From Ensifer sp. BR816 (GTDB taxonomy: Bacteria > Pseudomonadota > Alphaproteobacteria > Rhizobiales > Rhizobiaceae), in NCBI RefSeq assembly GCF_000378985.1, contig NZ_KB905370.1:3865342-3929341 (forward strand): a stretch of 64,000 nucleotides of DNA. Reading direction: 5' to 3'. A model generated the notes under the pieces. The model made no database searches, was not told the origin of the DNA, and saw only the letters and a program-made list of their open reading frames with translations. The position numbers and the translations under genes are program-made. Every line of letters starts with the position of its first letter. The stretch's first letter is position 1. This document shows, one piece after another, positions 915 through 17,892 of this stretch.

Positions 915-1692
915 ACTTTGAGGCCATGATGTGCTCCTTGAAACGGATATGTGGTCACGAACCACAAATGAGCGATCGCCCTTCAGTACCGGATCATGAT
1001 CACTCCTTCGTTGAACCAAGAAAGAAACGCAGCCGCCTTCTCTGGAAGCCGGTCGGCAGCGGCGAGTGCGCCGATGTCGAGGCCGAGCCGGCGGGCAATC
1101 GAGGAGCGGATTTGCTCCTTTCTAAACTGGCCCTTAATCTCTCTGGATTTCAGTCCCCAGTTAGAGTGTAAAGAACTCATTCAGCACGAAGATCAAACCC
1201 CAGCGCTTCCATCCGGCCGAGTAGGCGAGCGTGCCTATGCCGCACCCGTAAGACATTCTCCGGGCATTTCCACCGCATCGAAAATCTCGACACGATTATT
1301 GAGGCCAGCAGCGACAACTGCCGCAGGCCAACATTCCGCGTGCTGGTTCCCGTTAATACATTATGCGATTTTGGAAGCACGAACGAGAACATCTCCCGCT
1401 GCGACGCCTCGAGCGGGCTGAGGTACGACCGCTATCGACCCAGCTGCGGCTCGCTATAGTTGCGACAATGTCGGGTGCCGGTGAGCAATGTTGCCGTTTG
1501 ACACTGTTGCTGCGAATTTCCCTAATCCACCCATCCACGACGCTTCGGTGGATGGAAACTAGCCGCGGCAGTAATGGCAATGGTACAGTGAATACTTTGC
1601 ACTGAGCTCTGACATTCAACTTCCAGCCACCAATGCTGATCCGGCGCGAGGTGCGGTCGCGTCGGCTGTCTACCGCGACAGAGAAATGCGCT
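915..1692. other. Gene-poor intergenic stretch with decayed sequence
   Basis: About 780 bases separate the convergent LysR gene and transporter ATPase gene. No open frame here has a credible start or family resemblance, apart from the DUF4172 remnant listed separately. Composition is less GC-biased than in the flanking genes. This looks like eroded coding DNA. Confidence 0.6.
1049..1236 (-). pseudogene. Remnant of a Fic-family (DUF4172) protein
   Basis: Two minus-strand frames that join near 1177-1180 read RHARLLGRMEALGFDLRAE and then FRKEQIRSSIARRLGLDIG followed by ALAAADR. These match, from memory of the family, the DUF4172 domain that precedes the Fic AMP-transferase fold, where the motifs LLGRMEALGFDLR and VRSSIARRLGLDIG lie about 35 residues apart. 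The copy has a stop and a frame change between the motifs and no Fic catalytic HPFxxGNGR segment follows. Only about 60 codons survive. The resemblance is clear by eye but unsearched. Confidence 0.6.
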
Positions 1693-2766
1693 TCACCCAG
1701 TGCAGCGAAGGCCCGTCTTCATCTCTCCGCCGTCGACCATGAACGCGAGAACGCGCTCCAGCGTCACCGTTCCGATCGTCTGCCTGTCAGGGTCGACAAC
1801 CGCAATTTCTGTTTCCCCGGCGCGTGTCATTACCCTTGCTGCTTCTTCTAATGTGGCGCCAACCGGCACCGAAACTCTCGTTACTGAATCGGCGGTGCGC
1901 GGTCCGAGCGCGATCGTCTCGATTTTGAGCACGCGCGCGCGGTTCACTTCCTTGACGAAGCTTGCGATGTATTCATTGGCGGGGTTCATCACAATTTCTT
2001 GGCCGGTTCCCTGCTGCACCACCTCACCGTCTCGCAAGATCGCAATCCGATCGCCCAGCCTCAGCGCTTCGTCGAGATCGTGGGTGATGAACACGATCGT
2101 TTTCTTGATCTCCTTCTGGAGGTCGAGCAGCACTGTTTGCATGTCCATGCGAATGAGGGGGTCGAGCGCAGAGAAGGCCTCGTCCATGAGGAGAATCGGC
2201 GCATCGCTCGCGAGCGCTCGGGCAAGTCCGACCCGCTGCTGCATTCCGCCCGAAAGCTGGTTCGGATATTTCCGTTCAAAGCCCTTGAGCCCCACACGTT
2301 CGATCCACTGCATCGCGCAATCTATCTGGCGCGTGCGCGGCGCCCCTTGAATCTCCAGGCCGTAAAGCACGTTTTCCACAACGGTACGGTGCGGAAGAAG
2401 GGCGAACTTCTGGAACACCATCGCCGTTCTGTGCCGACGGAATTCGCGCAGTTGCCTCGAGTCCATCTTCACCACGTCTTCGCTGCCAATGAGGACCTCG
2501 CCCGACGTCGGATCGATCAGGCGATTGATGTGGCGGATCAGCGTGGATTTCCCCGAGCCGGAAAGACCCATGATCACCTGAATCCCGCCAGCCGGCATGG
2601 AGATGTTGATGTCCCTCAACCCGAGAACATGACCGTAGCGACTGTTCAGTTCGGCTTTGGTGAGACCGTCTTCCACCAGCTTGATATAGTCTGCGCCGTT
2701 GGGCCCGAATATCTTGTAGAGGTGTTTGATCTCGATACCCAAACCACCGATTTTTCGATTACCCAT
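1693..2766 (-). CDS. Betaine/choline-type ABC transporter ATP-binding protein (ProV/ChoV family)
   Basis: This 357-residue ATPase would energise uptake of a quaternary amine or sulfonium compound with the two genes upstream. Visible motifs are Walker A (GLSGSGKST), the signature LSGGMQQR and Walker B (ILLMDEAFSALD). The N-terminal extension before the core (FGPNGADYIKLVEDG) is typical of ProV-type subunits, and the C-terminal 80 residues resemble a CBS-like regulatory tail. The chosen ATG overlaps the permease stop by 8 bases and has GGGAG about 7 bases upstream. Substrate is inferred from context: choline, glycine betaine or DMSP. Confidence 0.85.
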   Translation of the reverse strand: MGNRKIGGLGIEIKHLYKIFGPNGADYIKLVEDGLTKAELNSRYGHVLGLRDINISMPAGGIQVIMGLSGSGKSTLIRHINRLIDPTSGEVLIGSEDVVKMDSRQLREFRRHRTAMVFQKFALLPHRTVVENVLYGLEIQGAPRTRQIDCAMQWIERVGLKGFERKYPNQLSGGMQQRVGLARALASDAPILLMDEAFSALDPLIRMDMQTVLLDLQKEIKKTIVFITHDLDEALRLGDRIAILRDGEVVQQGTGQEIVMNPANEYIASFVKEVNRARVLKIETIALGPRTADSVTRVSVPVGATLEEAARVMTRAGETEIAVVDPDRQTIGTVTLERVLAFMVDGGEMKTGLRCTG

Positions 2767-3531
2767 GAACAATCTCCCGATGCTTCTGTAGTCGCAGACC
2801 ATAGGCCTGGCTGACCCGGTCGAAGATGATGGCGATACCGACGATGGCGAGGCCGTTAAAGATGCCGAGCGTGAAATATTGGTTGGAGATCGCCTTCAGC
2901 ACCGGCTGGCCGAGACCCTGCACGCCGATCATCGAGGCGATGACGACCATGGCGAGCGCCATCATGATCGTCTGGTTGATGCCGGCCATGATGGTGGGTA
3001 GCGCAAGCGGCATCTGCACGTTCTTCAGCTTCTGCCAGTTCGACGAGCCGAAGGCGTCGGCCGCTTCCAAGACGTCCTTATCGACGAGGCGGATGCCGAG
3101 ATTGGTAAGCCGGATCATCGGCGGAATGGCGTAGATGATGACGGCGATCAGGCCGGGAACCTTGCCGATACCGAGCAGCATGACGACCGGAATCAAGTAC
3201 ACGAAACTCGGCATCGTCTGCATGACGTCGAGGATCGGGTTGAGAGCATTCTGCACCCGATCGGAGCGCGACATGACGATGCCGATCGGTATGCCAATAA
3301 CAATGGAGAGGACCGTACAGACGAAGATCATCGAGACCGTCTTCATGGTGTCGTCCCACATGTCGAAGTAGCCAATGAGGAGCAGCGTGCCGACGGCGCC
3401 GGTGACGATCTTCCAGTTGCGGCTGGCGAGCCAGGCGATGAGGCCGAAGCGCGAAAGCCCTCGTCGATTGCCTTCTTGAGGTTGCGAAGCCCGTTAGCAT
3501 CCATCGTCGGAAATTTCATGAACCAATCCAT
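2759..3531 (-). pseudogene. Betaine/choline-type ABC permease (ProW/ChoW family) with N-terminal deletion and frameshift
   Basis: The expected N-terminus starts at 3531 (MDWFMKFPTMDANGLRNLKK) behind a GGGATC-like site. It runs about 28 codons to IDEGF, then leaves frame. The conserved permease sequence resumes in another frame (FGLIAWLASRNWKIV, IGYFDMWDDTMKT) and is intact to the stop. ChoW-like proteins have roughly 50 more residues, including the first membrane helix, at the junction. Position of the break is about 3440-3455. The remaining part carries several hydrophobic helices and the permease EAA-like loop (EAADAFGSSNWQKLKNVQMP). It could be a real pseudogene, a restart product from the Met at 3361, or an assembly error. 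Confidence 0.75.
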
Positions 3532-3621
3532 GCCGATCCCTTTCTCGCCTTGCTGGCCGCAAAGCATCCCCGCATCGGCGCGCCAGAAGGCGCGCCGGCC
3601 GATTGTTAGATGAGGTGTTGC

Positions 3622-4623
3622 TTAGAGCGCGGCTTTGATATTTTCCGCCACTTCCGGCGAGACCCACTGGGTCCAGAGCGCTTCGTTCTCTTCCAGAAAG
3701 TGCTTGGCGCCATCCTCGCCGGTCGCCTGGTTATCGGTCATCCAGGCCATCAGTTTATTGACCGTGTCGTTCGTCCAGGAGCGCTTACCGAGATAGCCCA
3801 TGACCTCGGCGCCCGCGCGATCCGAGAAACCTTTGGTGACAAGTGTCTGGACCTTGTCCTTCGGCCAATCGTTCTTCTTCGGGTCGGCGCAGTCGGCAAC
3901 CGTGTTGCAGCGCTTCCACTCGGCCTCGTTGAAAGCGACGCCGTGGTCGAGCTTCACCATGTCGTACTTGCCGAGCAGCGCAGTCGGTGCCCAGTAATAG
4001 CCGACCCAGCCTTCGTTGCGCTCGTAAGCCTTGGCGATCGAGCCGTCGAGGCCGGCGGCCGAGCCGGTGTCGATCAGCGTGAAGTTGGCTGCCGCGCCGC
4101 CATAGGCCTTGTAGAGCTGGCCAGTCACAACCGTGCCGCCCCAACCGGCCGGGCCGTTGTGAACGGCCCCCTTGCTCTTGTCTTCTGGGTCAGGGAAAAG
4201 TTCCGGATGCTTGAGGGCGTCGTCTATCGTCTTAATGTCTGGGTGGGCGTCTGCGACGTATTTCGGGATCCACCAGCCCTGCACGCCACCGTCAGAGAGC
4301 GAGTCGGCGGCGGCGACGAGTTTACCGTCCCGGATACCGCCGTTGACGACCTCCGGCAGCAGGCCGACCCAGCCTTCAGGCGCGACATCCGGCTCACCCT
4401 TCTCGATCATCGAGGTGATCGTCGGAACCGTGTCACCCACGATAATTTCGGCGTTGCAGCCATAGCCTTCGGTCAGGATGAATTTGTCGAGCGCGGCAAG
4501 GACCTCGGCGCTCTGCCAGTTCATGCTAGCGATGGTTACGTCGCCGCAGGCGGCGTTCGCGGTGCCCGTCACGGCCAGAAACCCGGCAACGAGGCAGGCA
4601 GAAGCAAGCAGTTTCTTCATCAT
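3622..4623 (-). CDS. Periplasmic substrate-binding protein of a betaine-type ABC transporter (OpuAC family)
   Basis: This is a 333-residue secreted binding protein. It begins with a Sec signal (MMKKLLASACLVAGFLAVTG, cleavage near TANA-AC) and continues with the OpuAC fold. Tryptophan-rich segments (PEGWVGLLPEV, GGVQGWWIPKYV, NEGWVGYYWAPTALL) are of the kind that form aromatic boxes around trimethylammonium or dimethylsulfonium groups. I chose the start at 4623 because a GGGAGGAAAC site sits directly upstream; a longer open frame extends to 4758 without a site. It heads the transporter genes and follows the CoA-transferase gene by 107 bases. Likely ligands are choline, betaine, carnitine or DMSP. 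Confidence 0.87.
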   Translation of the reverse strand: MMKKLLASACLVAGFLAVTGTANAACGDVTIASMNWQSAEVLAALDKFILTEGYGCNAEIIVGDTVPTITSMIEKGEPDVAPEGWVGLLPEVVNGGIRDGKLVAAADSLSDGGVQGWWIPKYVADAHPDIKTIDDALKHPELFPDPEDKSKGAVHNGPAGWGGTVVTGQLYKAYGGAAANFTLIDTGSAAGLDGSIAKAYERNEGWVGYYWAPTALLGKYDMVKLDHGVAFNEAEWKRCNTVADCADPKKNDWPKDKVQTLVTKGFSDRAGAEVMGYLGKRSWTNDTVNKLMAWMTDNQATGEDGAKHFLEENEALWTQWVSPEVAENIKAAL

Positions 4624-4730
4624 GTTTCCTCCCAATACGATGTCCGTTCTTCGTCCCTGACGCCATCGCCAAACATCGAGGACTGTCGGGCGGCTCCGGC
4701 TCCTCCACGAACCGGCACCACCGTTGTCCG

Positions 4731-7244
4731 TCAGCTCGGCAGATACTCCGCGCTCCATGTTTCGCTTGCCGTTTCCGAAGCGATCATCCGATCGATCTCA
4801 GCATCGGTGTAATTCAGGGCCCTGAGGACCGAGCGCGTTGAGGCGCCATATTTTTCCGCCGGAGTCACTGCGATGACCTTGCCGACCGTCGGCCGGATCG
4901 CGAAAGGATCAAGCTGGGTAACCGCGTGACCGCTCGGATGGTCGGGGAAGATCGAAAAGGAATAGCTGCCACGGTCGGTGCCCGGAGTTCCGTCCGAAAC
5001 CCTCGCACTCCTGGCCCTAATCGTCTCGATGTTCTCGCAAAGCGACACGCCGACATCGGCCTGTAACAATCGGTGCTGCCAGGTTTCGGCCGGTGCGGAC
5101 CTGAAGGCGCGGGCAAGCCAGCCTTCACGGTCTGGCACCGCGACCGAATCGAGCCCCTCCAGCCCTTCAACAGTTATAAGCCGCGGCAGATCCTTTTCGG
5201 TTGCGCATAGGAGAAGATAGTCACCGGATCCTGTTTCGTAGAGCCGTGACAGGGCGTCATACCCTTTGATGTCGCGGCCGGACGGCTCGTCGAAGGGCCC
5301 GCGCCCCTCGTATTCATAGCAGAACGGAATCTGCGCAAGTCCGGTCAACGCCGAAAGGGAAGTCCGTGGCCGGCCGACGATACCCGTCTTCGATTTCTGA
5401 TAGAGGGCAGCCGCCACACCCAGAGCGGCTCCAAAGCCGCACATGACATCGATCGTACCAACATGCGCATGCTCTTCCGGCGTCTGCATCGATCCGCCAA
5501 AACGCAGCATGATGCCCGTTGCCGACTGGACCAGATCGTCATAGCCGAGATAGTCTGTGCGCGGCCCCTTCCTCACGCCGCCGAAGCAGTCGAGTTGGCA
5601 GAAGATCGCATTCGGATTGAGCGCCTCCAGGCTCTCGGCATCGAGGCCCATCCACTTCACTTGCCGATCGGTGGCGTTCCAGACCACGACATCAACGGAT
5701 TTTACCAACTGTTCGAAGACCACTCGCCCGTCGGGCGAGCCGATATTCAAGAGAACTGACTGCTTGCCGCGCATATGCGACATGCCGAAAATCACGGTAT
5801 TCCAGCAGTCGTAAAGCGGCTTGGCGGGGTCAATCTTGATGACCTCCGCCCCGAAGCGGGCGAGATAGGCGACCGAATGGGGACCGGCTATGACGTTGCA
5901 GAGGTCAAGCACCTTTACGCCATTCAGCCAGCCTCCGGAGTTGCTCGCCGTCGCGGCCGGCACCTGCAACGAGCCCGTGCGGGACAGCAGTTCCACCGCT
6001 TCATCGACAGATCCCCACCGTCGCGGTTGCGGCGTAAGCATGGCTTCGGCGCTTTCCTGGAGCCAAGCCAAAGGCCCCGGCTGCGTCATGCGTCCGTAAA
6101 CCGGATCGTCGACCTTGATCATCAGCCCCGCGGCGTTGGCGTGATCATCGCTGATCCACTCCTTCAGCCAGCGCTGCGGCGCGCCCGGAAACAGACCTTC
6201 CCCAAAAATGCGTTCCCATTCTGCCGCCGTCTTCGTCAGGAAAACCTCTTTCATCCGAGCCGCGATTTTGTCGGCCCAGTGTTTCGGCAAGGGATAAACG
6301 CCAAGCGAGACATCCGAAGACCACTGCGAAACCGGCAGGTAAGTGTCTTCCTCTTCGCGAAGACCCTCGGCGGCGAGCGCATCGTAGAGGCCCAGCGCCT
6401 GCAGGCAGCGCTTTGCATGATTCCTGTGGCTGGGGCAGACGACGTAAAACATGCGCCCATCGCTGCACATGTAGCTGCGATAGAAGGGATCCAGAAACTC
6501 CTGGAGGTCCTCGTAGGACATGTCCATCGGCAGGCCTTCGCGCTGCCGCCGCTCGATCTCTCGCTCGCGTTGGGTCTGGTAGCGCAGCGGATAGTCGTCG
6601 ATCTTGATCGAGTTATAGGAGAGCCCCTCCATCACCGCGCTTGCCAGTGGCACTTCGATATGGTCGCCGTGGCCGGTGCGTTCCCGTGCCTGGAGCGCGA
6701 GCACCGTCGCGGAGGCCGCCAGCATTGTGCCATAGGCGGAGGCCAACGGCAGCGGCGAGAAGGACGGGTTGATGCCCATCAACACCCGGTTCAGCCCCAT
6801 ATCGGTGAAGACACCGGAGGACGCCGCAATCACCGTTTCGAAAGCCCGCCAATCGCGGCGCAACTGGTCGTTGGAGGCAAAACCGGGGATCGACAGGGTA
6901 ATCAGCTCCGGGCGCGCCGAGCGTAACGCTTCAAAATCGAGGCCAAGCCGGGCCATGACGCCGGGGCGGAAATTCTCGATGACAATATCGGTCCCGGCAA
7001 TGAGCGCCCTCGCCTCTTCAAGTCCATCCGCGGTCTTCAGATCGATGGTGACGATCAGCTTGTTGCGATTGAGGATCGCGTTCGCGGGATTGTCCCACAT
7101 GGGACCTCCGGGTGGATCGACATGCACGACGGTTGCGCCGAGATCGCCGAGGATCATGGCCACCGCTGGCCCGGCGATATATTGGCCGAAGTCGACCACC
7201 CGAACGCCGGATAGCGGAAGCGCCGAACGCGAGATCGATGTCAT
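4731..7244 (-). CDS. dddD: Two-domain CaiB/BaiF (class III) CoA-transferase, DddD-like DMSP CoA-transferase/lyase
   Basis: The 837-residue protein has two complete class III CoA-transferase domains in tandem. The first begins at VDFGQYIAGPAVAMILGDLG (about residue 15), the second at VLDLCNVIAGPHSVAYLARFG (about residue 440). Length and tandem layout match DddD, which makes dimethyl sulfide and 3-hydroxypropionyl-CoA from DMSP. In domain 2 the segment HVGTIDVMCGFGAALG keeps an Asp where this family has its acyl-carrying Asp. In domain 1 the equivalent segment PLPLASAYGTMLAAS has none, as expected for DddD with one active half. An SD (GGGAGGACACCTCA) precedes the ATG. Neighbours are a GMC dehydrogenase and a betaine-type importer. 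A carnitine-type transferase is the main alternative. Confidence 0.75.
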   Translation of the reverse strand: MTSISRSALPLSGVRVVDFGQYIAGPAVAMILGDLGATVVHVDPPGGPMWDNPANAILNRNKLIVTIDLKTADGLEEARALIAGTDIVIENFRPGVMARLGLDFEALRSARPELITLSIPGFASNDQLRRDWRAFETVIAASSGVFTDMGLNRVLMGINPSFSPLPLASAYGTMLAASATVLALQARERTGHGDHIEVPLASAVMEGLSYNSIKIDDYPLRYQTQREREIERRQREGLPMDMSYEDLQEFLDPFYRSYMCSDGRMFYVVCPSHRNHAKRCLQALGLYDALAAEGLREEEDTYLPVSQWSSDVSLGVYPLPKHWADKIAARMKEVFLTKTAAEWERIFGEGLFPGAPQRWLKEWISDDHANAAGLMIKVDDPVYGRMTQPGPLAWLQESAEAMLTPQPRRWGSVDEAVELLSRTGSLQVPAATASNSGGWLNGVKVLDLCNVIAGPHSVAYLARFGAEVIKIDPAKPLYDCWNTVIFGMSHMRGKQSVLLNIGSPDGRVVFEQLVKSVDVVVWNATDRQVKWMGLDAESLEALNPNAIFCQLDCFGGVRKGPRTDYLGYDDLVQSATGIMLRFGGSMQTPEEHAHVGTIDVMCGFGAALGVAAALYQKSKTGIVGRPRTSLSALTGLAQIPFCYEYEGRGPFDEPSGRDIKGYDALSRLYETGSGDYLLLCATEKDLPRLITVEGLEGLDSVAVPDREGWLARAFRSAPAETWQHRLLQADVGVSLCENIETIRARSARVSDGTPGTDRGSYSFSIFPDHPSGHAVTQLDPFAIRPTVGKVIAVTPAEKYGASTRSVLRALNYTDAEIDRMIASETASETWSAEYLPS

Positions 7245-7266
7245 TGAGGTGTCCTCCCAAAGTATT

Positions 7267-8964
7267 TCATGCGTGCTGCCGGGCTTCTTCAACGATCCAG
7301 CGCGCCGTCTTTTCCGCAATCATCAGTGTCGGCGCATTCGTGTTGCCGCTGGTGATTTTTGGCATGATGCCCGCGTCGACGACGCGAAGGCCGGCGATTC
7401 CTCTCACCCGCAGGCGACTGTCGACCACCGCCGTCGGATCGTCATTGCGTCCCATCTTTGTCGTCCCGACAGGATGGAAAATGGTATTGGCGATGTCCCC
7501 GGCGAGCTTGGCGAGTTCTTCGTCGCTCCGGAACTGGGGGCCAGGCTTCCACTCCTCCGGCCGATATTTCGCAAGAGCCGGCTGCGTCACGATCCTGCGG
7601 ATCTGGCGGATGCTGTCGGCAGCAATCCGCCGGTCGTCTTCCGTGCTGAGATAGTTCGGCGCGATCGCCGGCGCATCGCTGGCCTTGTCGGAGCGCAGGC
7701 GGACGGTTCCGACACTCGTCGGATTGAGGTTGCAGACGCTCGCGGTAAAGGCGGGAATGCGGTGCAGCGGCTCGCCGAAGGCATCGAGACTGAGCGGCTG
7801 GACATGAAATTCCAGATTGGCGTGGGCCTGCGCTGCATCCGACCGGATGAAGGCGCCAAGCTGTGAGGGCGCCATGCTCATCGGGCCGCTGCGCCGTAGT
7901 GCATATTCAAGCCCGATCATCGCCTTACCCATCAGGCTGTTGGCAAGCGTGTTCAGTGTTTTCGCGTTGCCGACCTTGTAAACGGCACGAATCTGCAAGT
8001 GATCCTGCAGGTTTTCTCCCACGCCAGGTAGATCATGCACCACCTCTATGCCGTGGCGCTTCAGCAGGTGTGCCGGCCCAATGCCCGACAATTGCAGGAT
8101 ATGCGGAGAGCCGATCGCGCCGGCGGAAAGGATGACCTCCTTCTTGGCGCGTACCTCCACCCTGTGCCCACGACGGCTCAGAACGACGCCGGCGCAGCGC
8201 GTGCGCCCTGAAGCGTCGGTCTCCAACATCAGCTTCTCGACATGCGACTGCGTCCAGATGCTGAGGTTCGGCCGTGTCTTGGCAGGGCGGAGGAAGGCTT
8301 TCGACGTATTCCAGCGCCAGCCGGATCTCTGGTTCACTTCGAAATAGCCGACGCCTTCATTGTCACCGCTGTTGAAATCGTCCGAACGCGGGATGCCGGC
8401 CTGAACGGCCGCCTCGGCAAAGGACTCCAGGATGTCCCATTTCAGCCGCTGCTTCTCGACGCGCCATTCACCGCCATGACCGTGCATGTCGGAGAACCGA
8501 CTGTTGCCGCCCGTCTGCGGATCCGCGCCGCCGTCCAGACGGTAATGATCCTCATGGGCTTTGAAGTCCGGCAGAGAATTCTCCCACGACCAGGCATCGT
8601 CTCCCGTTGCCGCGGCCCAGCCGTCAAAGTCGCGGGCCTGCCCGCGCATATAGATCATGCCATTGATGGAGGAGCAGCCGCCGAGCGTCTTGCCGCGGGG
8701 ATAGCGTAGCGACCGGCCATTCAGCCCGGCGTCCGGCTCGGTCTTGAATAGCCAATCGGTGCGCGGATTGCCGATGCAATAGAGGTAGCCGACAGGGATA
8801 TGGATCCAGGGATAATCATCCTTCCCGCCCGCTTCCAGCAAAAGCACGCGCGTCGCGGGATCGCGGCTGAGGCGGTTTGCCAGCAGGCAGCCGGCGGAGC
8901 CTCCACCGACGATGATGTAGTCGAACTCTAGGTTGTTGTCGCGCACGCCGGAGGTCTGTTTCAT
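7267..8964 (-). CDS. GMC-family FAD alcohol dehydrogenase, choline dehydrogenase-like (DddA candidate)
   Basis: The 565-residue flavoprotein has an N-terminal FAD-binding site (DYIIVGGGSAGCLLANRLS), the GMC signature (GKTLGGCSSINGMIYMRG) and the C-terminal catalytic region (FHPVGTTKMG, then NTNAPTLMIAEKTA). The start at 8964 has AGGAG 10 bases upstream. The stop lies 22 bases before the CoA-transferase start, so the two are probably co-transcribed. In Halomonas a protein of this family, DddA, oxidises 3-hydroxypropionate made from DMSP; that role is inferred here from the neighbour. Choline or another primary alcohol remains possible. Confidence 0.8.
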   Translation of the reverse strand: MKQTSGVRDNNLEFDYIIVGGGSAGCLLANRLSRDPATRVLLLEAGGKDDYPWIHIPVGYLYCIGNPRTDWLFKTEPDAGLNGRSLRYPRGKTLGGCSSINGMIYMRGQARDFDGWAAATGDDAWSWENSLPDFKAHEDHYRLDGGADPQTGGNSRFSDMHGHGGEWRVEKQRLKWDILESFAEAAVQAGIPRSDDFNSGDNEGVGYFEVNQRSGWRWNTSKAFLRPAKTRPNLSIWTQSHVEKLMLETDASGRTRCAGVVLSRRGHRVEVRAKKEVILSAGAIGSPHILQLSGIGPAHLLKRHGIEVVHDLPGVGENLQDHLQIRAVYKVGNAKTLNTLANSLMGKAMIGLEYALRRSGPMSMAPSQLGAFIRSDAAQAHANLEFHVQPLSLDAFGEPLHRIPAFTASVCNLNPTSVGTVRLRSDKASDAPAIAPNYLSTEDDRRIAADSIRQIRRIVTQPALAKYRPEEWKPGPQFRSDEELAKLAGDIANTIFHPVGTTKMGRNDDPTAVVDSRLRVRGIAGLRVVDAGIMPKITSGNTNAPTLMIAEKTARWIVEEARQHA

Positions 8965-9118
8965 CGCGCGAACGCTCCTGCGCATCGAGACACAGGCTTA
9001 TAAAGCTCGATCGGTAATTGGCTCATTTCACACGCCTCCCTCGTCCTTTCTTAGATAAAACTTGAATCCGAGAGAAATCCAATTAGAAGTGTGGCAAAAC
9101 ATTATAAGCGGGACTAAT

Positions 9119-10045
9119 ATGCCTCACCCGATCGACTTGAAGACCCTGAGGGCCTTTGTTGCGGTGGCTCGCGAAGGAAATGTCACGCGGGCTTCCGAGC
9201 AACTGCACCTCACCCAGCCCGCTCTCAGCCAGCACCTGAAACGTCTTGCCTCCGATACAGGCGTCACCCTGTTCCGGCGAACGTCCAAGGGATTGGAACT
9301 GACCCATGAGGGCGCGTTGCTGGCCGCGAAGGCCGAACAGGTGTTCGCCGCTCTCCAAGATTTCGGGCAGACGGCCCGACATTTAGGCGCGCAGGTGCGC
9401 GGCAAGCTCCGGATCGGCACGATCATCGATCCGGAGTTCACCAGGCTTGGCGGTTTTCTGAAGGCGCTCGTTGACAGCGGACCGGGGATCGAAACGGAGC
9501 TTCGCCATGGCATGAGCGGCGATGTGCCGGAAGGGCTCCGGCGAAACGAACTGGATGTCGGTTTTTTTCTTGGCGATATCAAAGACTTCGATCCAGTGGC
9601 GAGCGTCGTTGCGGACGGAAGCGACAGCCTTTTTCACGTTCGGGAATTGGCCCGACTGACCTACCGCGTTGTCGCGCCTCCATCGCTCGCGGCTTTTGTA
9701 CGTGGACAGGACTGGGTTGCCCTTGCGGCCCTGCCGTGGATCGGCACGCCGCACGCGTCCGTCCACAATCGCCTTTTGAACGAGGTGTTTGGAAAGCTAG
9801 GGGTCCGCCAAAACATCGTCGCATCCGTCGATCAGGAGCCATCCATGCTTGCAATGGTCCGGACGGGTCTTGGGCTAAGCCTCTGCCGGGAATCCATTGC
9901 ACTACATGAGCAGCAAGCACACGGACTGGTAATTGCCGACCGCGTTGCAATCGAAACGGCTTTGAGTTTCGTGTGCTTGAGTGCGCGCATCGACGATCCG
10001 GCAATCAAGATTGCATTTGATGCTGTCAATCGCGTGTGGAACTGA
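9119..10045 (+). CDS. LysR-family transcriptional regulator, divergent from the DddD-like operon
   Basis: This is a 308-residue LysR regulator. The winged helix-turn-helix lies at about residues 5-63 (LKTLRAFVAVAREGNVTRAS, LTQPALSQHLKRL), followed by an effector-binding domain. The ATG at 9119 follows GGGA weakly; an in-frame TTG at 9062 is less likely. It is transcribed away from the GMC dehydrogenase gene, with 154 bases between, the usual layout for a LysR activator of the adjacent operon. Known ddd clusters often carry a LysR regulator. The inducer is not visible from sequence. Confidence 0.87.
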   Translation: MPHPIDLKTLRAFVAVAREGNVTRASEQLHLTQPALSQHLKRLASDTGVTLFRRTSKGLELTHEGALLAAKAEQVFAALQDFGQTARHLGAQVRGKLRIGTIIDPEFTRLGGFLKALVDSGPGIETELRHGMSGDVPEGLRRNELDVGFFLGDIKDFDPVASVVADGSDSLFHVRELARLTYRVVAPPSLAAFVRGQDWVALAALPWIGTPHASVHNRLLNEVFGKLGVRQNIVASVDQEPSMLAMVRTGLGLSLCRESIALHEQQAHGLVIADRVAIETALSFVCLSARIDDPAIKIAFDAVNRVWN

Positions 10046-10521
10046 GGTTGAGCTCGGCGCGGGCGACGGGCAATCACCGGGCCGGCCGAGCGCAAGGCCG
10101 CGGCCACGAACGTCTTTGAATATCCCACTCCCGAACCGTCGGACAACATCCCCGATTCGAGCAAGTTGTTCGAGGCGACGCACAAGCTTTCGACAATCCT
10201 GGTCAGCCCGAACGGCGGTGCTGACGAACGCTGTTGCCGCCCTATCCCCGTCGCTACGAAGCTTCCGTACATGGAAGTTCTATCGGTGATGAAGAAGCTT
10301 CGCCTCCTACAAGCGCGAGTCTGCTCTGATCGCGATCAGCGGTAGCTGCTTTTTTTGCGGCTAAACTTCCGCTGTCCACCCGAAGCGGTGGTTCGCCTCG
10401 GGTACAAAGCGTTAGACGGTTACCGTTAAGCTCAGGACCGTTTTTCAGCCCGTTTCGGCGCATCTATGCTAAGCTTCGCTGCGCGAATGGGAAAATATCA
10501 CAGAAATGCGCAAAACTTGCG

Positions 10522-10614: not shown

Positions 10615-11619
10615 ATGTACGCACAGATGGTCAAGACCGATGGCACCCGCGTCAAATCGCTCGACGACATGGAACCCGAGGAGCGCGCCTTCCAGCAGCG
10701 CATCGAAGCCGGGCAGAAGATCGAGCCGAAGGAATGGATGCCGGAGGCTTACCGCAAGACATTGGTGCGGCAGATCAGCCAACACGCCCATTCGGAGATC
10801 GTCGGGCAACTGCCGGAAGGCAACTGGATCACCCGCGCGCCGACGCTGGAGCGCAAGGCGATCCTGCTCGCCAAGGTCCAGGACGAAGCCGGCCACGGCC
10901 TCTATCTCTATTGCGCCGCCGAGACGCTCGGCATCAGCCGCGACGAGATGTATGAGCAGCTGCACAGCGGCAAGGCGAAATATTCCTCGATCTTCAACTA
11001 CCCGACGCTCTCCTGGGCGGATATCGGCGCTATCGGCTGGCTCGTCGACGGCGCCGCGATCATGAACCAGGTGCCGCTGCAGCGGTGCTCCTATGGGCCC
11101 TACGCGCGCGCCATGGTGAGGATCTGCAAGGAGGAAAGCTTCCATCAGCGCCAGGGCTTCGACATCCTCGCCAAGATGGTGAAGGGCACGCCGGCGCAGA
11201 AGGCCATGGTCCAGGATGCGCTTGATCGCTGGTGGTGGCCGTCGCTGATGATGTTCGGCCCTTCGGACGATGCTTCGGTTCACTCCGCACAATCGATGGC
11301 CTGGAAGATCAAACAGAACTCGAATGATGAACTGCGCCAGAAGTTCGTCGACCAGACCGTGCCGCAGGCCGACTATCTCGGCCTGACGGTGCCCGACCCG
11401 GAACTCAAGTGGAACGAGACGAAGGGCGGCTACGATTTCGGCGAGCCGGACTGGAAGGAGTTCTTCGAGGTGATCGCCGGCAACGGCCTCTGCAATGCCG
11501 AGCGGCTCGGTGCGCGCCGGAAAGCCTGGGACGACGGAGCCTGGTTCCGGGAGGGACTGCTCGCCCATGCGGCCAAGGCGGAAGCTCGCCGAACCACGGC
11601 ACCGGCGGCGGCAGAATAG
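10615..11619 (+). CDS. paaA: Phenylacetyl-CoA 1,2-epoxidase, catalytic subunit A
   Basis: PaaA is the diiron oxygenase subunit that inserts oxygen into phenylacetyl-CoA to give the ring 1,2-epoxide. The 334 residues are full length. Metal-ligand motifs are visible as [13 protein letters not shown] (around residue 95) and [15 protein letters not shown] (around residue 170). GGAGG stands 6-10 bases before the ATG. It is the first gene of a seven-gene rightward run, with a promoter and TetR-type dyad just upstream. Confidence 0.95.
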
Positions 11620-11647
11620 AGCAAGGCGTCAAACAGGAGGAGTGCCC

Positions 11648-11932
11648 ATGTCGAGTGAGTGGCCGCTTTGGGAAGTCTTCATTCGAGGCCAGCACGGCCT
11701 GAACCACCGCCACGTGGGCAGCCTGCACGCGCCCGATGCGGAAATGGCGATCCACAATGCCCGCGACGTCTATACCCGCCGCAACGAGGGCGTCAGCATC
11801 TGGGTGGTGCGATCGACCGACATCACCGCAAGCACGCCTTCCGAGAAGGGCCCGCTGTTCGATCCCGCCAATTCCAAGGTCTACCGCCATCCAACGTTCT
11901 TCGACGTTCCGGACGAAGTGGGGCACATGTGA
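11648..11932 (+). CDS. paaB: Phenylacetyl-CoA epoxidase subunit B
   Basis: This 94-residue small subunit is needed for epoxidase activity but has no catalytic metal. The start WPLWEVFIRGQHGLNHRHVG and the segment RRNEGVSIWVVRSTDI are characteristic of the family. GGAGG (AAACAGGAGGAGTGCCC) fixes the start at 11648 rather than a longer upstream frame. The stop overlaps the next start (TGATG), suggesting translational coupling with paaC. Confidence 0.94.
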   Translation: MSSEWPLWEVFIRGQHGLNHRHVGSLHAPDAEMAIHNARDVYTRRNEGVSIWVVRSTDITASTPSEKGPLFDPANSKVYRHPTFFDVPDEVGHM

Positions 11933-12711
11933 TGAGCGTGACGCCCACCCCCTCCGGCGACGGGACCGTGCTTTTCGAATTCCTGCAGCGCATGGGCGAC
12001 AATGCCCTGATCCTCGGCCATCGGCTGTCGGAATGGTGCGGCCACGCGCCGGCGCTGGAGGAAGACATTGCGCTTGCCAACACTGCCCTCGACCTGATCG
12101 GCCAGACGCAGTTGTGGCTTGGCCTCGCCGGCGAGGTGGAAGGCAAGGGCCGCACCGCCGATAACCTTGCCTACCTGCGCGACGCGACAGAGTTTCGCAA
12201 CGTGCTGCTCGTCGAGCGCCCGAACGGCGATTTCGGGAAAACGCTGATGCGGCAATTCCTGTTCGATGCCTGGCATCTAGTGATCCTGCAGGCACTGCGC
12301 TCGGCCGCCGACAAGCGCATTGCCGATATCGCCGAAAAGGCCGCCAAGGAAGTCGCCTATCACCTCGACCGCAGCCGCGACCTGATCGTCCGGCTCGGCG
12401 ATGGCACGGCGGAAAGCCACCGTCGCATGCAGGAAGCGCTCGACGAGCTCTGGCCCTATACCGGCGAACTTTTCATCGGCGACACAGGTGATGCGGAACT
12501 CGCTGCGGCTGGCATTATCCCCGCGCCGGAGAGCCTGAAAGGGGCGTGGGACGACGTGGTCGGCGAAACCTTGGCCGAGGCGACATTGAAGAAGCCGGCC
12601 GACGGTTACATGCACAAGGGCGGCAAGCGTGGCGTCCATACCGAGCATATGGGCTTCATCCTTGCCGAAATGCAGTTCCTCCAGCGCGCCTATCCGTGCG
12701 CCACCTGGTAA
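11932..12711 (+). CDS. paaC: Phenylacetyl-CoA epoxidase structural subunit C
   Basis: PaaC is a 259-residue ferritin-like partner of PaaA in the epoxidase heterocomplex. It is recognisable by the start region (FLQRMGDNALILGHRLSEWC), LALANTALDLIGQTQ-like sequence near residue 45, and the C-terminal GGKRGVHTEHMGFILAEMQF. PaaC generally lacks a working diiron site. The ATG overlaps the paaB stop by one base. The next gene starts 16 bases after the stop. Confidence 0.94.
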   Translation: MSVTPTPSGDGTVLFEFLQRMGDNALILGHRLSEWCGHAPALEEDIALANTALDLIGQTQLWLGLAGEVEGKGRTADNLAYLRDATEFRNVLLVERPNGDFGKTLMRQFLFDAWHLVILQALRSAADKRIADIAEKAAKEVAYHLDRSRDLIVRLGDGTAESHRRMQEALDELWPYTGELFIGDTGDAELAAAGIIPAPESLKGAWDDVVGETLAEATLKKPADGYMHKGGKRGVHTEHMGFILAEMQFLQRAYPCATW

Positions 12712-12727
12712 CGGAAGGAGGCCGGCC

Positions 12728-13252
12728 ATGGCGACCGCGACGCTGCCCTCCACCGCCGAAATCTGGCACTGGCTCGACGAGGTGCCGGATCCCGAAATCC
12801 CGGTGATCTCGGTCGTCGATCTCGGCATTATCCGCGCGGTCCGGTGGGAGGGCGAGACATTGGTCGTCACCGTGACACCGACGTATTCGGGCTGTCCCGC
12901 GACGGCGGTGATCAACCTCGACATCGAGCAAACGCTGCGGGAAAAGGGCGTCGCTAAGCTCAGGTTCGAGCGGCGGCTTTCGCCCGCCTGGACGACCGAC
13001 TGGATCAGCGCCGAAGGCCGCGAAAAATTGCGACGCTACGGCATTGCGCCACCCGTGGACGGCGCCGCCAGTGATGCCATGCTGCGCCAGCGCAGCGCGC
13101 GGCTCTCGGGTCGCTCCGATCCGATCATCGCCTGCCCGCAATGCGGATCGACGAAGACCGAGAAGATCAGCCAGTTCGGTTCGACGCCGTGCAAGGCAAG
13201 CTACCGTTGCACCGACTGTCTCGAACCATTCGACTACTTCAAGTGCATCTGA
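12728..13252 (+). CDS. paaD: Phenylacetyl-CoA epoxidase-associated protein D (DUF59/MIP18 family)
   Basis: The 174-residue protein has an N-terminal DUF59 domain (DPEIPVISVVDLGIIRAV) of the kind linked to iron-sulfur or metal-centre assembly. A C-terminal zinc-ribbon-like part contains the pairs CPQCGS and CTDC and a final Cys three residues from the end. It is required for the epoxidase in vivo in known systems. The start at 12728 has GGAAGGAGG upstream; a longer frame from 12629 would overlap paaC and has no site. Confidence 0.92.
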   Translation: MATATLPSTAEIWHWLDEVPDPEIPVISVVDLGIIRAVRWEGETLVVTVTPTYSGCPATAVINLDIEQTLREKGVAKLRFERRLSPAWTTDWISAEGREKLRRYGIAPPVDGAASDAMLRQRSARLSGRSDPIIACPQCGSTKTEKISQFGSTPCKASYRCTDCLEPFDYFKCI

Positions 13253-13277
13253 CCTTTTGCCCAGTGAGATCCGCAAG

Positions 13278-14354
13278 ATGGCCCGATTCCATTCCCTGCA
13301 GGTAACCGAAATCCGTCAGGATACGCGCGATGCCGTGGTCGTGACGCTCACCCCGCAGGAGCAGGACCGCGGCATCTTCGATTTCACGCAGGGCCAATAC
13401 CTGACATTCCGCCGCAGCTTCGATGGCGAGGAATTGCGCCGCTCCTATTCGATCTGCTCCGGGCGGCACGAAGGCACGTTGCGCGTCGGCATCAAACGGG
13501 TCGAGGGGGGCTGTTTCTCGACCTGGGCGAACGAGGAGCTGCGCGTCGGCGACACCATGGAGGCCATGCCGCCGATGGGTGCGTTCTTCACCCCGATCGA
13601 GCCGGAGGCGGCGAAGAACTATCTGGCCTTTGCCGGCGGCAGCGGTGTCACGCCCATCCTGTCGATCATCAAGACGACGCTCGCCAGCGAGCCGCGCTCT
13701 CACTTCACCCTCGTTTATGCCAATCGCCAGATCGGCTCGATCATGTTCCGCGAAGAGTTGGACGACCTGAAGAACATCTATCTCGGCCGGCTCGCCATCC
13801 TGCATGTGCTGGAGAGCGAATCCCAGGATATCGACCTCTTCGCGGGACGCGTCGACGCGGAGAAATGCACGGCTCTCTTCAAGCACTGGATCGATATCGA
13901 GGCGGCCGACATGGCCTTCATCTGCGGTCCGGAACCGATGATGCTGGCTGTCGCCGCGGCACTGCGCGGGCATGGGATGCGTGACGAGCAGATCAAGTTC
14001 GAGCTCTTCGCCTCCTCGCAACCGGGCCGTGCTCGCCGAAAGGCCGAAAGCGTTGCTGCGGCGGAGCGCGGCATCGCCTGCGAGGCGACCGTCACGCTCG
14101 ACGGCGCCACGCGCGTTTTCAGCATGCCGAAACAGGGACAGTCGCTTCTGGAAGCGGCACTCGAGAACAGAATGGACGCGCCCTATGCCTGCAAGGCCGG
14201 CGTCTGCTCGACCTGCCGCGCGAAGGTGCTCGAGGGAGAAGCCGAGATGGAAGTCAACCACGCGCTCGAGGACTACGAGGTCCGCCAGGGCTATGTCCTC
14301 ACCTGCCAAAGCTATCCGCTGAGCGACCGAATCGTCGTCAGCTACGATCAGTGA
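13278..14354 (+). CDS. paaE: Phenylacetyl-CoA epoxidase reductase subunit E
   Basis: PaaE passes electrons from NADPH through FAD and a [2Fe-2S] centre to PaaA. In the 358 residues the order is FAD domain (RRSYSICSG near residue 57), NAD(P) domain (FAGGSGVTPILSIIKTTL) and C-terminal plant-type ferredoxin domain. The cluster ligands are visible as CKAGVCSTC plus a distal LTC. The start at 13278 follows the paaD stop by 25 bases. The domain order is complete and no residue appears missing. Confidence 0.94.
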   Translation: MARFHSLQVTEIRQDTRDAVVVTLTPQEQDRGIFDFTQGQYLTFRRSFDGEELRRSYSICSGRHEGTLRVGIKRVEGGCFSTWANEELRVGDTMEAMPPMGAFFTPIEPEAAKNYLAFAGGSGVTPILSIIKTTLASEPRSHFTLVYANRQIGSIMFREELDDLKNIYLGRLAILHVLESESQDIDLFAGRVDAEKCTALFKHWIDIEAADMAFICGPEPMMLAVAAALRGHGMRDEQIKFELFASSQPGRARRKAESVAAAERGIACEATVTLDGATRVFSMPKQGQSLLEAALENRMDAPYACKAGVCSTCRAKVLEGEAEMEVNHALEDYEVRQGYVLTCQSYPLSDRIVVSYDQ

Positions 14355-14382
14355 CACGCGCCAAGGCGGAGGGAGGATGCCG

Positions 14383-15138
14383 ATGTCTGAAACGATGTCC
14401 ATCGAGGAATACCTCCGGCAAGGCGGCGTGCTGACGTCGCCCGACAATGCGCCGCCGCGCTACCGCGGCGAAGTGCTGCGCCTGATGGCAAGCTTCGTCG
14501 ATAGCGAACTTGCCGGGGCCGCCGGTTTTGCCGACATCATCAACGATGCTCCCGGCATCAAGGAGCGCATTGCAACCGCCCGGATCGTGCTGGAGAAGAC
14601 CGACCATGCCGGCCGCGTGCTCGACGTCATGGGGACTTTCGGCGCCGATGTCGAGCGCTATGCCGTACACCACGCCTGGAATGCGCGGCTCGCCCGTGAC
14701 GCCGACATCGGCGCGGCGCGCCAGGGCGGCGACATGCGCCTGTCCGTCTTCCACTATCCGCTCCAGGGCTGGGTGGATGCGGTCGTCCTGAACGTACTGA
14801 TGGGAATGGCGACCGTGATCCAGTTGCGCGAACTGACACATGTCTCCTACCAGCCGCTCGCCGAAATCTTCCGCGAGATCCTGCCGCGCGAAGCGCATCA
14901 CACTGCACTCGGTGTCGAGGCGTTGGAGCGCATTGTCGGGGACGAAGGATCACGCCGCGCCGCCTTGGAGTCCGTTGGCTACTGGCGCCCGCGCGTCGCG
15001 GCGAGTTTCGGCCTTGCAGGCTCCGCCCGCTACGAGATGCTCAAGCGCTTGGGGCTTCGCCATAGGCCGAATGAAGCCTTGCTTTCCGAATGGCAGACCA
15101 CCCTCGACGGGCAGCTTGCCGCATTGAACCTGAACTGA
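14383..15138 (+). CDS. Extra PaaA/PaaC-family (phenylacetate epoxidase-like, ferritin-fold) protein
   Basis: The 251-residue protein belongs by eye to the same ferritin-like family as PaaA and PaaC, but it is neither, since both are already present upstream. Possible metal ligands include RIVLEKTDHAGRVL (about residue 65) and the ExxH motif of REAHHTALGVEAL (about residue 165), aligned with the PaaA motifs. The start at 14383 is favoured over 14377 because GGAGGGAGG directly abuts the earlier ATG. It lies 28 bases after paaE and 18 before paaZ, so it is very likely co-transcribed. Its role is unknown: a second oxygenase, a chaperone or a regulator of the complex. Confidence 0.8.
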   Translation: MSETMSIEEYLRQGGVLTSPDNAPPRYRGEVLRLMASFVDSELAGAAGFADIINDAPGIKERIATARIVLEKTDHAGRVLDVMGTFGADVERYAVHHAWNARLARDADIGAARQGGDMRLSVFHYPLQGWVDAVVLNVLMGMATVIQLRELTHVSYQPLAEIFREILPREAHHTALGVEALERIVGDEGSRRAALESVGYWRPRVAASFGLAGSARYEMLKRLGLRHRPNEALLSEWQTTLDGQLAALNLN

Positions 15139-15156
15139 CCGCGAAGGAAAAAGAAA

Positions 15157-17214
15157 ATGGATGCTCCGGCAAACCGGCCCCGCAAGCTCGAAAGCCATGT
15201 CTACGGATCCTGGGTTCCGGGCAGCGGGGAAGGTGCGACGCTGCTCGACGCGTCGACCGGTGCCCCCGTGGCGCTGATCGATTCGACCGGCATCGACTTT
15301 TCCGCGGCGCTTGCCTACGGCCGCGAAAAGGCGGGGCCGGCCCTGCGGCGCATGTCCTTCCACGAACGCGCCGCGCTGCTGAAAGCACTTGCTCAGGCGC
15401 TGATGGACCGGAAGGAAGAGTTCTATGCGCTCTCGTCGGCGACCGGCGCGACCCGGACCGACAGCTGGATCGACATCGAGGGCGGCATCGGCACCCTGTT
15501 CGCCTATTCGTCCAAGGGCCGCCGCGAGCTGCCGAATACTCGGGTCCTCGTCGAGGGTGACGTCGAGCCCCTCTCGCGCGACGGCACGTTCTCGGCCCGC
15601 CACATCCTGTCGCCGCTCGAAGGCGTTGCCGTCCACATCAACGCCTTCAACTTTCCTGTCTGGGGCATGCTGGAAAAGCTCGCGCCGACATTGCTCGCGG
15701 GCATGCCGGCGATCGTCAAGCCGGCGAGCCAGACCGCCTATCTCACCGAGCTCGTCGTCCGTCGCATGCTGGAAACCGGGCTTCTGCCCGAAGGCGCGGT
15801 GCAACTGGTCTGCGGGTCGATCGGCGACCTCCTCGATCACGTCGATGGACAGGACGTGGTGACGTTCACCGGTTCGGCCTCGACCGGCCGCAAGCTGTGG
15901 ACCCACCCGGCGATCGTCGAGAATTCGATACGCTTCACGATGGAGGCGGACAGTCTCAATGCCTCGCTGCTCGGCCGCGATGCGGCGCCCGGCACGGAGG
16001 AGTTCGAGCTTTTCGTCAAGGAGGTGGCGCGCGAGATGACGGCCAAGGCGGGCCAGAAGTGCACGGCCATCCGTCGCGTCCTGGCGCCACGCGCCTATTG
16101 CGACGCGGTCGTCGCCGCGCTCGGCGAGCGGCTTGCCAAGACCGCGCTCGGCAACGCCGCTGACGAGAATGTCCGCATGGGACCCCTGGCGAGCCTCGGC
16201 CAGCGCGAGGAGGTCCGCGCCCGCATTCGCGACCTGGCGGCGGACGCCGAAGTCGTCGCCGGCGACCCCGACAATCCGCGGCTCGTCTCCGGCGATGCGC
16301 GGGTCGGCGCCTTCCTCAACCCCGTCCTGCTCTATTGCGATGCGCCGCTCAAGGCGAAAGCCGTTCATGACGTCGAGGCCTTCGGCCCGGTCAGCACCGT
16401 GATGCCCTATGACACCGCCGAGGAGGCCCTCGAACTTGCAAGGCGGGGCAAGGGCAGCCTCGTCTCGTCGGTGTTCACGAACGACCCGGCCTTTGCCGAG
16501 GCGGTGGTGCTCGGCATGGCGCCGTTCCACGGGCGCGTGCTGATCGGCAACCGCACGACCGCGAAGTCCTCCACCGGCCACGGCTCGCCGCTGCCCGGTC
16601 TGGTCCATGGCGGCCCCGGACGCGCCGGCGGCGGCGAGGAGCTTGGCGGGATTCGCGGCGTGAAGCACTACATGCAGCGTACCGCCGTTCAGGCTTCGCC
16701 GACCATGCTTGCAACGGTAACCGGGCGCTGGGTCGCGGACGCCGAGGTGCGTAGCGACCACGAGCATCCGTTCCGCAAGTCGCTCGCGGAACTCCGCATC
16801 GGCGACCAGCTCATGACAGGCGCGCGCACCGTGACACTCGAGGACATCGAACATTTCGCGCATTTCACCGGTGACACCTTCTACGCGCACATGGACGAAG
16901 AGGCGGCGCGGGCGAACCCGTTCTTCGAGGGTCGCGTCGCCCACGGTTATCTGATCGTCTCGCTCGCGGCCGGGCTCTTCGTGGATCCGGCACCCGGCCC
17001 GGTTCTGGCCAACTACGGCGTCGACAACCTGCGCTTCCTGACGCCGGCCTATCCGGGCGACAGCTTGCAGGTGCAACTCACCTGCAAGGAAATCAACCCA
17101 CGCATCGGCGCCGACTATGGCGAAGTTCGCTGGGATTGCCGGGTGTCCAATCAGAACGGCGCCGTCGTGGCGCAATACGACGTTCTGACGATGGTCGCCA
17201 AGACACGGAGTTGA
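15157..17214 (+). CDS. paaZ: Bifunctional oxepin-CoA hydrolase / 3-oxo-5,6-dehydrosuberyl-CoA semialdehyde dehydrogenase
   Basis: PaaZ opens the oxepin-CoA ring and oxidises the resulting aldehyde. The first ~520 residues are an aldehyde dehydrogenase with the nucleophile Cys in GQKCTAIRRVLAP and the preceding FTMEADSLN segment. The last ~150 residues are a MaoC-type hydratase with HFTGDTFYAHMDE and FFEGRVAHGYLIVS supplying the Asp/His pair. At 685 residues it is full length. GAAGGAAAAAG precedes the ATG. It ends the rightward operon and converges on the TetR gene 46 bases later. Confidence 0.95.
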   Translation: MDAPANRPRKLESHVYGSWVPGSGEGATLLDASTGAPVALIDSTGIDFSAALAYGREKAGPALRRMSFHERAALLKALAQALMDRKEEFYALSSATGATRTDSWIDIEGGIGTLFAYSSKGRRELPNTRVLVEGDVEPLSRDGTFSARHILSPLEGVAVHINAFNFPVWGMLEKLAPTLLAGMPAIVKPASQTAYLTELVVRRMLETGLLPEGAVQLVCGSIGDLLDHVDGQDVVTFTGSASTGRKLWTHPAIVENSIRFTMEADSLNASLLGRDAAPGTEEFELFVKEVAREMTAKAGQKCTAIRRVLAPRAYCDAVVAALGERLAKTALGNAADENVRMGPLASLGQREEVRARIRDLAADAEVVAGDPDNPRLVSGDARVGAFLNPVLLYCDAPLKAKAVHDVEAFGPVSTVMPYDTAEEALELARRGKGSLVSSVFTNDPAFAEAVVLGMAPFHGRVLIGNRTTAKSSTGHGSPLPGLVHGGPGRAGGGEELGGIRGVKHYMQRTAVQASPTMLATVTGRWVADAEVRSDHEHPFRKSLAELRIGDQLMTGARTVTLEDIEHFAHFTGDTFYAHMDEEAARANPFFEGRVAHGYLIVSLAAGLFVDPAPGPVLANYGVDNLRFLTPAYPGDSLQVQLTCKEINPRIGADYGEVRWDCRVSNQNGAVVAQYDVLTMVAKTRS

Positions 17215-17260
17215 GGCGATCGGAACCGGTCCCGACGTCCTCTCGCACACTGCAGAAAGT

Positions 17261-17857
17261 CTAGCGAACCGCCTTCACTCCATTGAGGAGCAATGTCGTG
17301 GCGAGATCGGCATATTCGTCGCGGCTGATCGGGCCGCCCGGCCGGAACCACATATAGACCCAGTTCATCATCCCGAAGAGCGACATGGTGACGGGCATCA
17401 GCAGCGGCTTTTCACCGTTGAGGCTCGGATTGATTTCGCCGATCGTGTTGGCGAAGCGTTTGACGATGCGTCGCTCGATGCTTCTCAGATGCTCCAGCTG
17501 TTCCGCGCTCAGGGCGCTGGTGCCGTTGAGCTGCACCTTGTGCTCGTTGTCGGCGCCGCGATAGTTGTCGAGCACCTGGCGCACCAGAGCCCGCAGACGG
17601 TCCTCGGGGCACAGATCCTGACGATCGACGCTTGCGATCCCCGCGTCCAGCTCTTCGAGATGCGTGCGGATGATATCGAAGATCAGCGCATCCTTGCCGG
17701 GATAGTAGTGATAGAGCAGCGCTTTCGACACATTGCTGCGCGAAGCGATTTGCGCCATCGACGCCTTCTCCATGCCGAGTTCGGCGAAGACCGCAGCCGC
17801 ATTGCTCAAGATGCTGCGTTGCTTTTCCTCAAAATCGACCGCGCGCGTTCGTGCCAT
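17261..17857 (-). CDS. paaR: TetR-family repressor, probable PaaR of the phenylacetate cluster
   Basis: This 198-residue TetR protein has an N-terminal helix-turn-helix (SMAQIASRSNVSKALLYHYY, about residues 33-52) and a ligand-binding C-terminal domain. It lies downstream of paaK on the same strand, separated by 100 bases that contain an inverted repeat. Two near-identical dyads in the cluster at 10553 and 20591 are likely targets. In known paa systems PaaR of this family releases DNA on binding phenylacetyl-CoA; that inducer is inferred here. AGGAT lies upstream of the ATG. Confidence 0.82.
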   Translation of the reverse strand: MARTRAVDFEEKQRSILSNAAAVFAELGMEKASMAQIASRSNVSKALLYHYYPGKDALIFDIIRTHLEELDAGIASVDRQDLCPEDRLRALVRQVLDNYRGADNEHKVQLNGTSALSAEQLEHLRSIERRIVKRFANTIGEINPSLNGEKPLLMPVTMSLFGMMNWVYMWFRPGGPISRDEYADLATTLLLNGVKAVR

Positions 17858-17892
17858 GTTGATCCTGCGTTTTCATGCGCCTCCCCGTGATA

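Follow-up and report, generated by a model that had tools for sequence, protein, structure and literature searches.

We describe a cluster of six genes in a window of 64,000 nucleotides (the whole stretch of DNA that was analysed) from Ensifer sp. BR816 (NZ_KB905370.1). The cluster is placed on the 6.13-Mb main contig of a 6.95-Mb genome assembled in three contigs. A gene for a LysR regulator lies on the plus strand and, divergently from it, genes for a GMC dehydrogenase, a tandem coenzyme A (CoA)-transferase, an OpuAC-type binding protein, a permease and a ProV-type ATPase follow on the minus strand. The features, in window coordinates, are:

1645..10381, no strand: limits of the cassette (8.7 kb), as given by a blastn match of 96-97% to pNGR234b of S. 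fredii NGR234
1693..2802, minus strand: ProV-type ABC ATPase with a CBS domain, 369 residues (TIGR01186, 353.7 bits against a cut-off of 326.6; PF00571)
2759..3361, minus strand: permease core of the ProW/ChoW type, 200 residues (PF00528), readable in frame only when started at an internal ATG (3361)
3343..3531, minus strand: 62-residue out-of-frame remnant of the 5' part of the permease gene, overlapping the first codons of the core, with a 115-bp deletion inside it, near 3447
3622..4623, minus strand: periplasmic binding protein (OpuAC/PF04069), 333 residues, with pocket residues W, T, W, Q, W, G, Y, W
4731..7244, minus strand: predicted dddD, tandem class III CoA-transferase/dimethylsulfoniopropionate (DMSP) lyase of 837 residues (PF02515 in two stretches; motif EEHAHVGTID at Asp599; start ATG)
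7267..8985, minus strand: dddA-like GMC flavoprotein of the choline-dehydrogenase type (PF00732 and PF05199; longest open reading frame (ORF) of 572 residues)
9062..10045, plus strand: divergent LysR regulator (PF00126 and PF03466), probable start ATG at 9119, judged from the annotated relative in locus L021
9101..9118, no strand: ATTA-N10-TAAT palindrome, a possible LysR box, directly 5' of the probable LysR start and kept in aligned intergenic sequences

All genes named in a preliminary description of this DNA were found in place as ORFs with their Pfam domains, although the GMC dehydrogenase, which that description put after the CoA-transferase, precedes dddD in the direction of transcription. 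The annotated GMC relative in L021 begins about 8 residues downstream of the start of the longest ORF. That these are chance or misassembled ORFs was rejected, as they have end-to-end matches in NGR234 and GR64, the permease being matched in its core only. Judging from sequence, we consider it very likely that the cluster represents an NGR234-type cassette for DMSP catabolism, which consists of an importer, DddD, a DddA-type GMC enzyme and LysR control.

The identification of the 837-residue protein as DddD is strongly supported by comparison with its relatives. In a tblastn search of a plasmid collection, in which 115 records each covered 80% or more of the query at a single place, the best records were those of S. 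fredii NGR234, 96.8% identical over the whole 836-residue query, and GR64 (96.7%). The NGR234 protein (AAQ87407.1) is listed among functionally ratified DddD enzymes in Table 3 of PMC8520302, and NGR234 is treated as a dddD strain in PMC3338564 and PMC7370799; both the DddD reading of the preliminary description and its mention of a homologue in NGR234 are thus borne out. As expected for DddD, the window protein is a single polypeptide of ~830-840 residues with two class III CoA-transferase domains and is closely related over its full length to a ratified member. The dddD primer sites published in PMC7370799 translate into NVIAGPHS and EEHAH(L/F)GT, and the window protein carries matching NVIAGPHS at 450 and EEHAHVGT at 590. 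In a protein search, among the best 120 of 2857 matches, those from Modicisalibacter ilicicola and Rhizobium subbaraonis, both annotated as DddD, share 74% identity with it; an annotated DddD scores 1428 bits. The PDB search returned no chain that is a close relative of DddD, the best score being 128 bits. The NGR234 gene was reportedly expressed in E. coli by Todd et al. in 2007 (Science), with dimethyl sulfide (DMS) observed.

The arrangement of the presumed active site agrees with this identification. Asp599, in the second half of the protein, aligns with an Asp that three single-domain CoA-transferases encoded in this genome have in common; its first-half counterpart is Pro166 when both halves are split and aligned separately. 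Asp occupies position 599 in all 218 aligned rows, whereas the first-half site holds P in 214 of them, G in 3 and T in 1, never Asp; the rows, 194 proteins and 24 further ones, are not all independent, the window protein being entered twice and some loci probably being repeats. The tandem layout with a plausible active Asp in the second half only, proposed earlier together with an alignment of the catalytic Asp as its check, is therefore upheld. In the Marinomonas DddD, the catalytic residue is numbered Asp602. In the family sample, 12 DddD matches have at least 62% identity (this genome included) and 7 have 45-53%. Distant tandem CoA-transferases (L027:12001-14463 and L086-L092) are 44-53% identical to the window DddD; the seven that were aligned (L027 and L086-L091) all have the second-half Asp alone, L092 having been left out of the alignment, and the Dinoroseobacter protein of L027 (45%) resembles the distant group of the family.

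The gene neighbourhoods were compared in 22 loci, 13 from a pattern scan and 9 chosen by hand out of 60 listed plasmid matches, with the best-scoring high-scoring segment pair alone kept for each gene and locus (in L018, GMC and dddD were matched in part). In 20 of these loci, the GMC gene lies immediately upstream of dddD; it is nearby downstream in one (Paraburkholderia) and was not found in the remaining one (Dinoroseobacter L027). In Nitrincola, a gene of the methylmalonate-semialdehyde dehydrogenase (MMSDH)/dddC type (674 bits), the GMC gene, dddD, an aminotransferase gene and a LysR gene stand in a row, and the window GMC is 75% identical to the Nitrincola GMC that sits between the dddC-type gene and dddD. 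The annotated order in Phaeobacter is LysR, GMC, dddD, BCCT, LysR, MMSDH. The Nitrincola row, with GMC and dddD beside a dddC-type gene, and the position upstream of dddD in most loci make the GMC protein probably an enzyme of the DddA type, by synteny and family; the earlier proposal of a DddA-like dehydrogenase is thus probably right. H. bluephagenesis requires its DddA, an enzyme of the choline-dehydrogenase type, for growth on 3-hydroxypropionate (PMC7940609). An unlinked MMSDH encoded at C1:291762 of the same genome, which scores 652 bits where the cut-off is 448.5, could fill the role of dddC.

The binding protein of the importer has its best PDB match in 7yle (E 1.4e-71, about 39% identity), which we take to be the RnDmpX-DMSP structure since its residues agree with the pocket positions W35, T64, W84, E113, W152, A153, Y200 and W202 given for RnDmpX in PMC10030565. 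Six of the eight positions (the equivalents of W35, T64, W84, W152, Y200 and W202) are the same in the window protein, with Gln in place of Glu113 and Gly in place of Ala153. The same genome encodes six full-length paralogues with 52-80% identity, of which L068 is the closest; the pocket comparison was made without paralogue L069. Across the 22 loci, the binding protein, permease and ATPase are all matched at 75% or more in 10, and neither binding protein nor permease has a match in 11, among which the annotation gives L025 a BCCT carrier and L026 an ABC transporter of another type. In Rhizobium bangladeshense p4 (L022:14628-15686), dddD is followed by a match to binding-protein residues 2-138 only and then by an annotated HicAB toxin-antitoxin pair; no match to the permease or ATPase was found in this locus.

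The palindrome beside the probable LysR start has the same half-sites and spacing in 14 of 14 aligned intergenic sequences. The effector of AcuZ of Halomonas D47 is 3-hydroxypropionate according to PMC13104084, and by analogy with AcuZ the palindrome may be the site of the LysR regulator. A promoter and terminator scan of 8850-9250 found nothing.

Taken together, these genes would form the following pathway. DMSP would be taken in by the betaine-type ABC importer, and DddD, by means of Asp599, would move CoA from acetyl-CoA to DMSP and eliminate DMS, giving 3-hydroxypropionyl-CoA or 3-hydroxypropionate; this activity, which others have shown for DddD enzymes, we infer here because of the 96.8% identity to the NGR234 protein. 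The DddA-type GMC flavoprotein would oxidise 3-hydroxypropionate to malonate semialdehyde, the unlinked CoA-acylating MMSDH would finish the route to acetyl-CoA, and the LysR protein would control the divergent operon; a plausible effector is 3-hydroxypropionate, by analogy with AcuZ. In this strain, the freshly damaged permease means that uptake would need the truncated core or another transporter. The uptake and conversion of the substrate to 3-hydroxypropionate, as envisaged in the preliminary description, thus hold in part: the DddD step is strongly supported, and the importer step is weaker than had been stated there.

Several observations weigh against assigning the cluster to DMSP catabolism. 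The permease gene lacks 115 bp and has its 5' part out of frame in comparison with all ten aligned relatives (NGR234, GR64 and eight other rhizobial loci), and the ATPase gene has a ratio of nonsynonymous to synonymous substitution rates (dN/dS) of 0.37-0.40, which indicates weaker constraint. The paralogue L068, encoded outside the cluster, has eight pocket residues identical to those of the window protein, so that the aromatic box does not diagnose DMSP as the substrate; DMSP specificity deduced from this box was dropped for that reason. The importer described earlier has a pocket that resembles that of the DMSP-binding DmpX, but DMSP and other betaines are not told apart by this box, and the permease is disrupted. 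The GMC protein stays below the cut-offs of generic choline dehydrogenase models (561.6 against 605 bits and 466.5 against 732.1 bits), and its best PDB match is a chloramphenicol-inactivating oxidoreductase with choline dehydrogenase close behind; it reaches the cut-off of no specific curated model, so that its substrate is assigned by synteny. The cassette contains neither dddC nor a BCCT gene, and bacteria with dddD are mostly marine gammaproteobacteria according to PMC13104084.

Two other substrates have to be considered. The protein could be a carnitine/crotonobetaine (CaiB-like) CoA-transferase that merely resembles DddD, since it belongs to the same Pfam family and some of its relatives are named carnitine dehydratase or CaiB-like. 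It scores, however, 105.7 bits against a cut-off of 413 with the L-carnitine CoA-transferase model NF002914 and 38-40 bits with the PDB CaiB chains, far from the 1428 bits of an annotated DddD, and has the tandem form in addition to its near identity to the NGR234 enzyme; a closer relationship to carnitine/crotonobetaine transferases, which the preliminary description had named as fatal to its proposal, is refuted by these scores, and we give it virtually no credence. Alternatively, the natural substrate could be a nitrogen analogue such as beta-alanine betaine, cleaved to trimethylamine and 3-hydroxypropionyl-CoA, with DMSP cleavage being a side reaction. The soil and plant setting would suit such a substrate, as would an importer that belongs to a betaine group and has several close paralogues encoded elsewhere in the genome, a pocket that is not DMSP-specific by sequence, and the Km of the Marinomonas DddD for DMSP, which is above 40 mM (PMC5395565). 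Yet PMC8520302 lists the NGR234 enzyme among the ratified DddD proteins, the GMC-dddD pair is also present in the Nitrincola, Loktanella and Phaeobacter loci, DMSP is reported to be widespread in plants (PMC13352529), and the annotated flanks listed include no product named for trimethylamine, though no search was aimed at one. We regard a betaine as the natural substrate as quite improbable and retain DMSP.

The state of the importer in this strain is a separate matter. The blastn comparison with NGR234 shows the same gap in the permease gene near 3447. Translation from the old start (3531) now yields a 62-residue peptide that ends at 3343, and the 200-residue core, which would start at the internal ATG at 3361, lacks the N-terminal 95 residues and, with them, one of the five hydrophobic segments that a simple hydropathy scan detected in the NGR234 permease. 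The core is 99-100% identical to the NGR234 and GR64 cores, and the absence of any codon difference from GR64 over 200 codons implies that the deletion is recent. An assembly error is an unlikely source of the 115-bp gap. The complete set of binding protein, permease and ATPase known from DmpXWV is interrupted here by the permease frameshift, and the importer of this strain may be dead or truncated.

It can be asked whether this strain is losing the cassette as a whole: with a broken permease, it would no longer take up DMSP, and the operon would be in decay. The frameshifting deletion itself, the higher dN/dS of the ATPase gene and the R. bangladeshense locus, with its match to 137 residues of the binding protein and none to the permease or ATPase, point in this direction. 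On the other hand, the ORFs of dddD, GMC, LysR and the binding protein are all open and have dN/dS values of 0.09-0.24 (0.24, 0.16, 0.14 and 0.10, respectively, against NGR234), and the lesion is recent, as judged from the core. Moreover, nine of the 22 loci (L007, L008, L011, L015, L016, L017, L023, L024 and L025) keep GMC-dddD, although neither this binding protein nor this permease finds a match in them, which implies that the importer is dispensable; two BCCT carriers and the six full-length paralogous binding proteins could substitute for it, and the old frame stops across the first codons of the core, making re-initiation of a core of 195-200 residues possible. Decay of the cassette is therefore a reading that we find rather doubtful. 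A more speculative option is that the intact ATPase of the cassette, shared or supplied, powers a permease encoded elsewhere in an orphan pair. A related permease occurs in all 33 genomes of the genus at E values of up to 1e-150, and no ATPase gene was detected within ~1.5 kb of such a pair in 30 of 30 loci, one each from 30 of the 33 genomes, nor in a 10-kb stretch around the binding-protein/permease pair of this genome. If ATPase sharing were true, the deletion in the cassette's own permease would be tolerated and DMSP uptake would depend on a mixed core/accessory transporter; we consider this improbable. A binding-protein/permease pair at L099:3810-5898 (G000 C1:5025809-5027897) is ~79% and ~94% identical, respectively, to that of the cassette.

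Concerning the origin of the DMSP-catabolism cassette, its match to pNGR234b falls into two pieces, 3447-10381 at 96.1% and 1645-3447 at 97.4%, and outside 1645-10381 the window has no match in the aligned 26.5-kb NGR234 locus. Other nearby DNA that matches pNGR234b is less alike, 85.3% (L043) and 88.8% (window ~30-44 kb). The difference between 96-97% for the cassette and 85-89% for the other nearby DNA suggests, as the simplest reading, recent transfer or recombination between replicons. The dddD gene was found in 3 of 33 genus genomes (this one and G007 included) and in 19 of 394 family genomes (this one included), in both cases at E values of up to 1e-200, with the top two candidates per genome scored in the family. 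In NGR234, a phage-integrase fragment of 88 residues lies just outside the cassette. Here, a phenylacetate (paa) cluster at 10615-20000 of the window directly adjoins it; these genes were rejected as part of the system, being outside the shared 1645-10381, and in the NGR234-like genome G007 it is the 3.9-Mb contig that carries paaA. The 6.13-Mb main contig carries repC (G000 C1:4298136-4298651) and, the window (1-64000) included, mixes genes that are split in G007 between the 3.9-Mb and pNGR234b-type contigs; it may be a chromosome-chromid fusion.

The presence of DddD on a compact and apparently mobile cassette in plant-associated Rhizobiaceae fits the formation of terrestrial DMS from plant DMSP. 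Gene presence alone may, however, overstate this capacity, given the damage to the linked importer in BR816. The preliminary description held that a DMS-making soil symbiont would be ecologically notable; dddD in a soil symbiont is, however, not a discovery, since dddD of NGR234 is already in print (PMC3338564, PMC7370799 and PMC8520302) and the system is known within this very genus.

Among known systems, Burkholderia ambifaria AMMD is similar, by description alone, in that its dddD is linked to ABC importer genes for which DMSP import was shown in E. coli (PMC10030565). The ddd-acu cluster of Halomonas HTNK1 and D47 (DddD, DddT, DddA, DddC and AcuNKIRZ) shares with the window the combination of DddD, a DddA of the choline-dehydrogenase type and a LysR regulator (PMC13104084 and PMC7940609), whereas the window cassette has an ABC importer in place of the BCCT carrier DddT and is devoid of dddC and acu genes. 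DmpXWV of marine roseobacters and SAR11 provides the best PDB match of the binding protein (RnDmpX, 7yle), with six of eight pocket residues in common; it differs in the remaining two (Glu113 to Gln and Ala153 to Gly) and in overall sequence, about 39% identical, and the permease is broken here. The closest system is the cassette of S. fredii NGR234 on pNGR234b, which has the same six genes in the same order and orientation, 96-99% identical at the protein level (for the permease, in its core only) and 96-97% at the DNA level. What distinguishes the BR816 cassette from it is its placement on the 6.13-Mb main contig instead of a megaplasmid, its paa neighbours instead of a phage-integrase fragment, and its disrupted permease, which is intact, at 295 residues, in NGR234.

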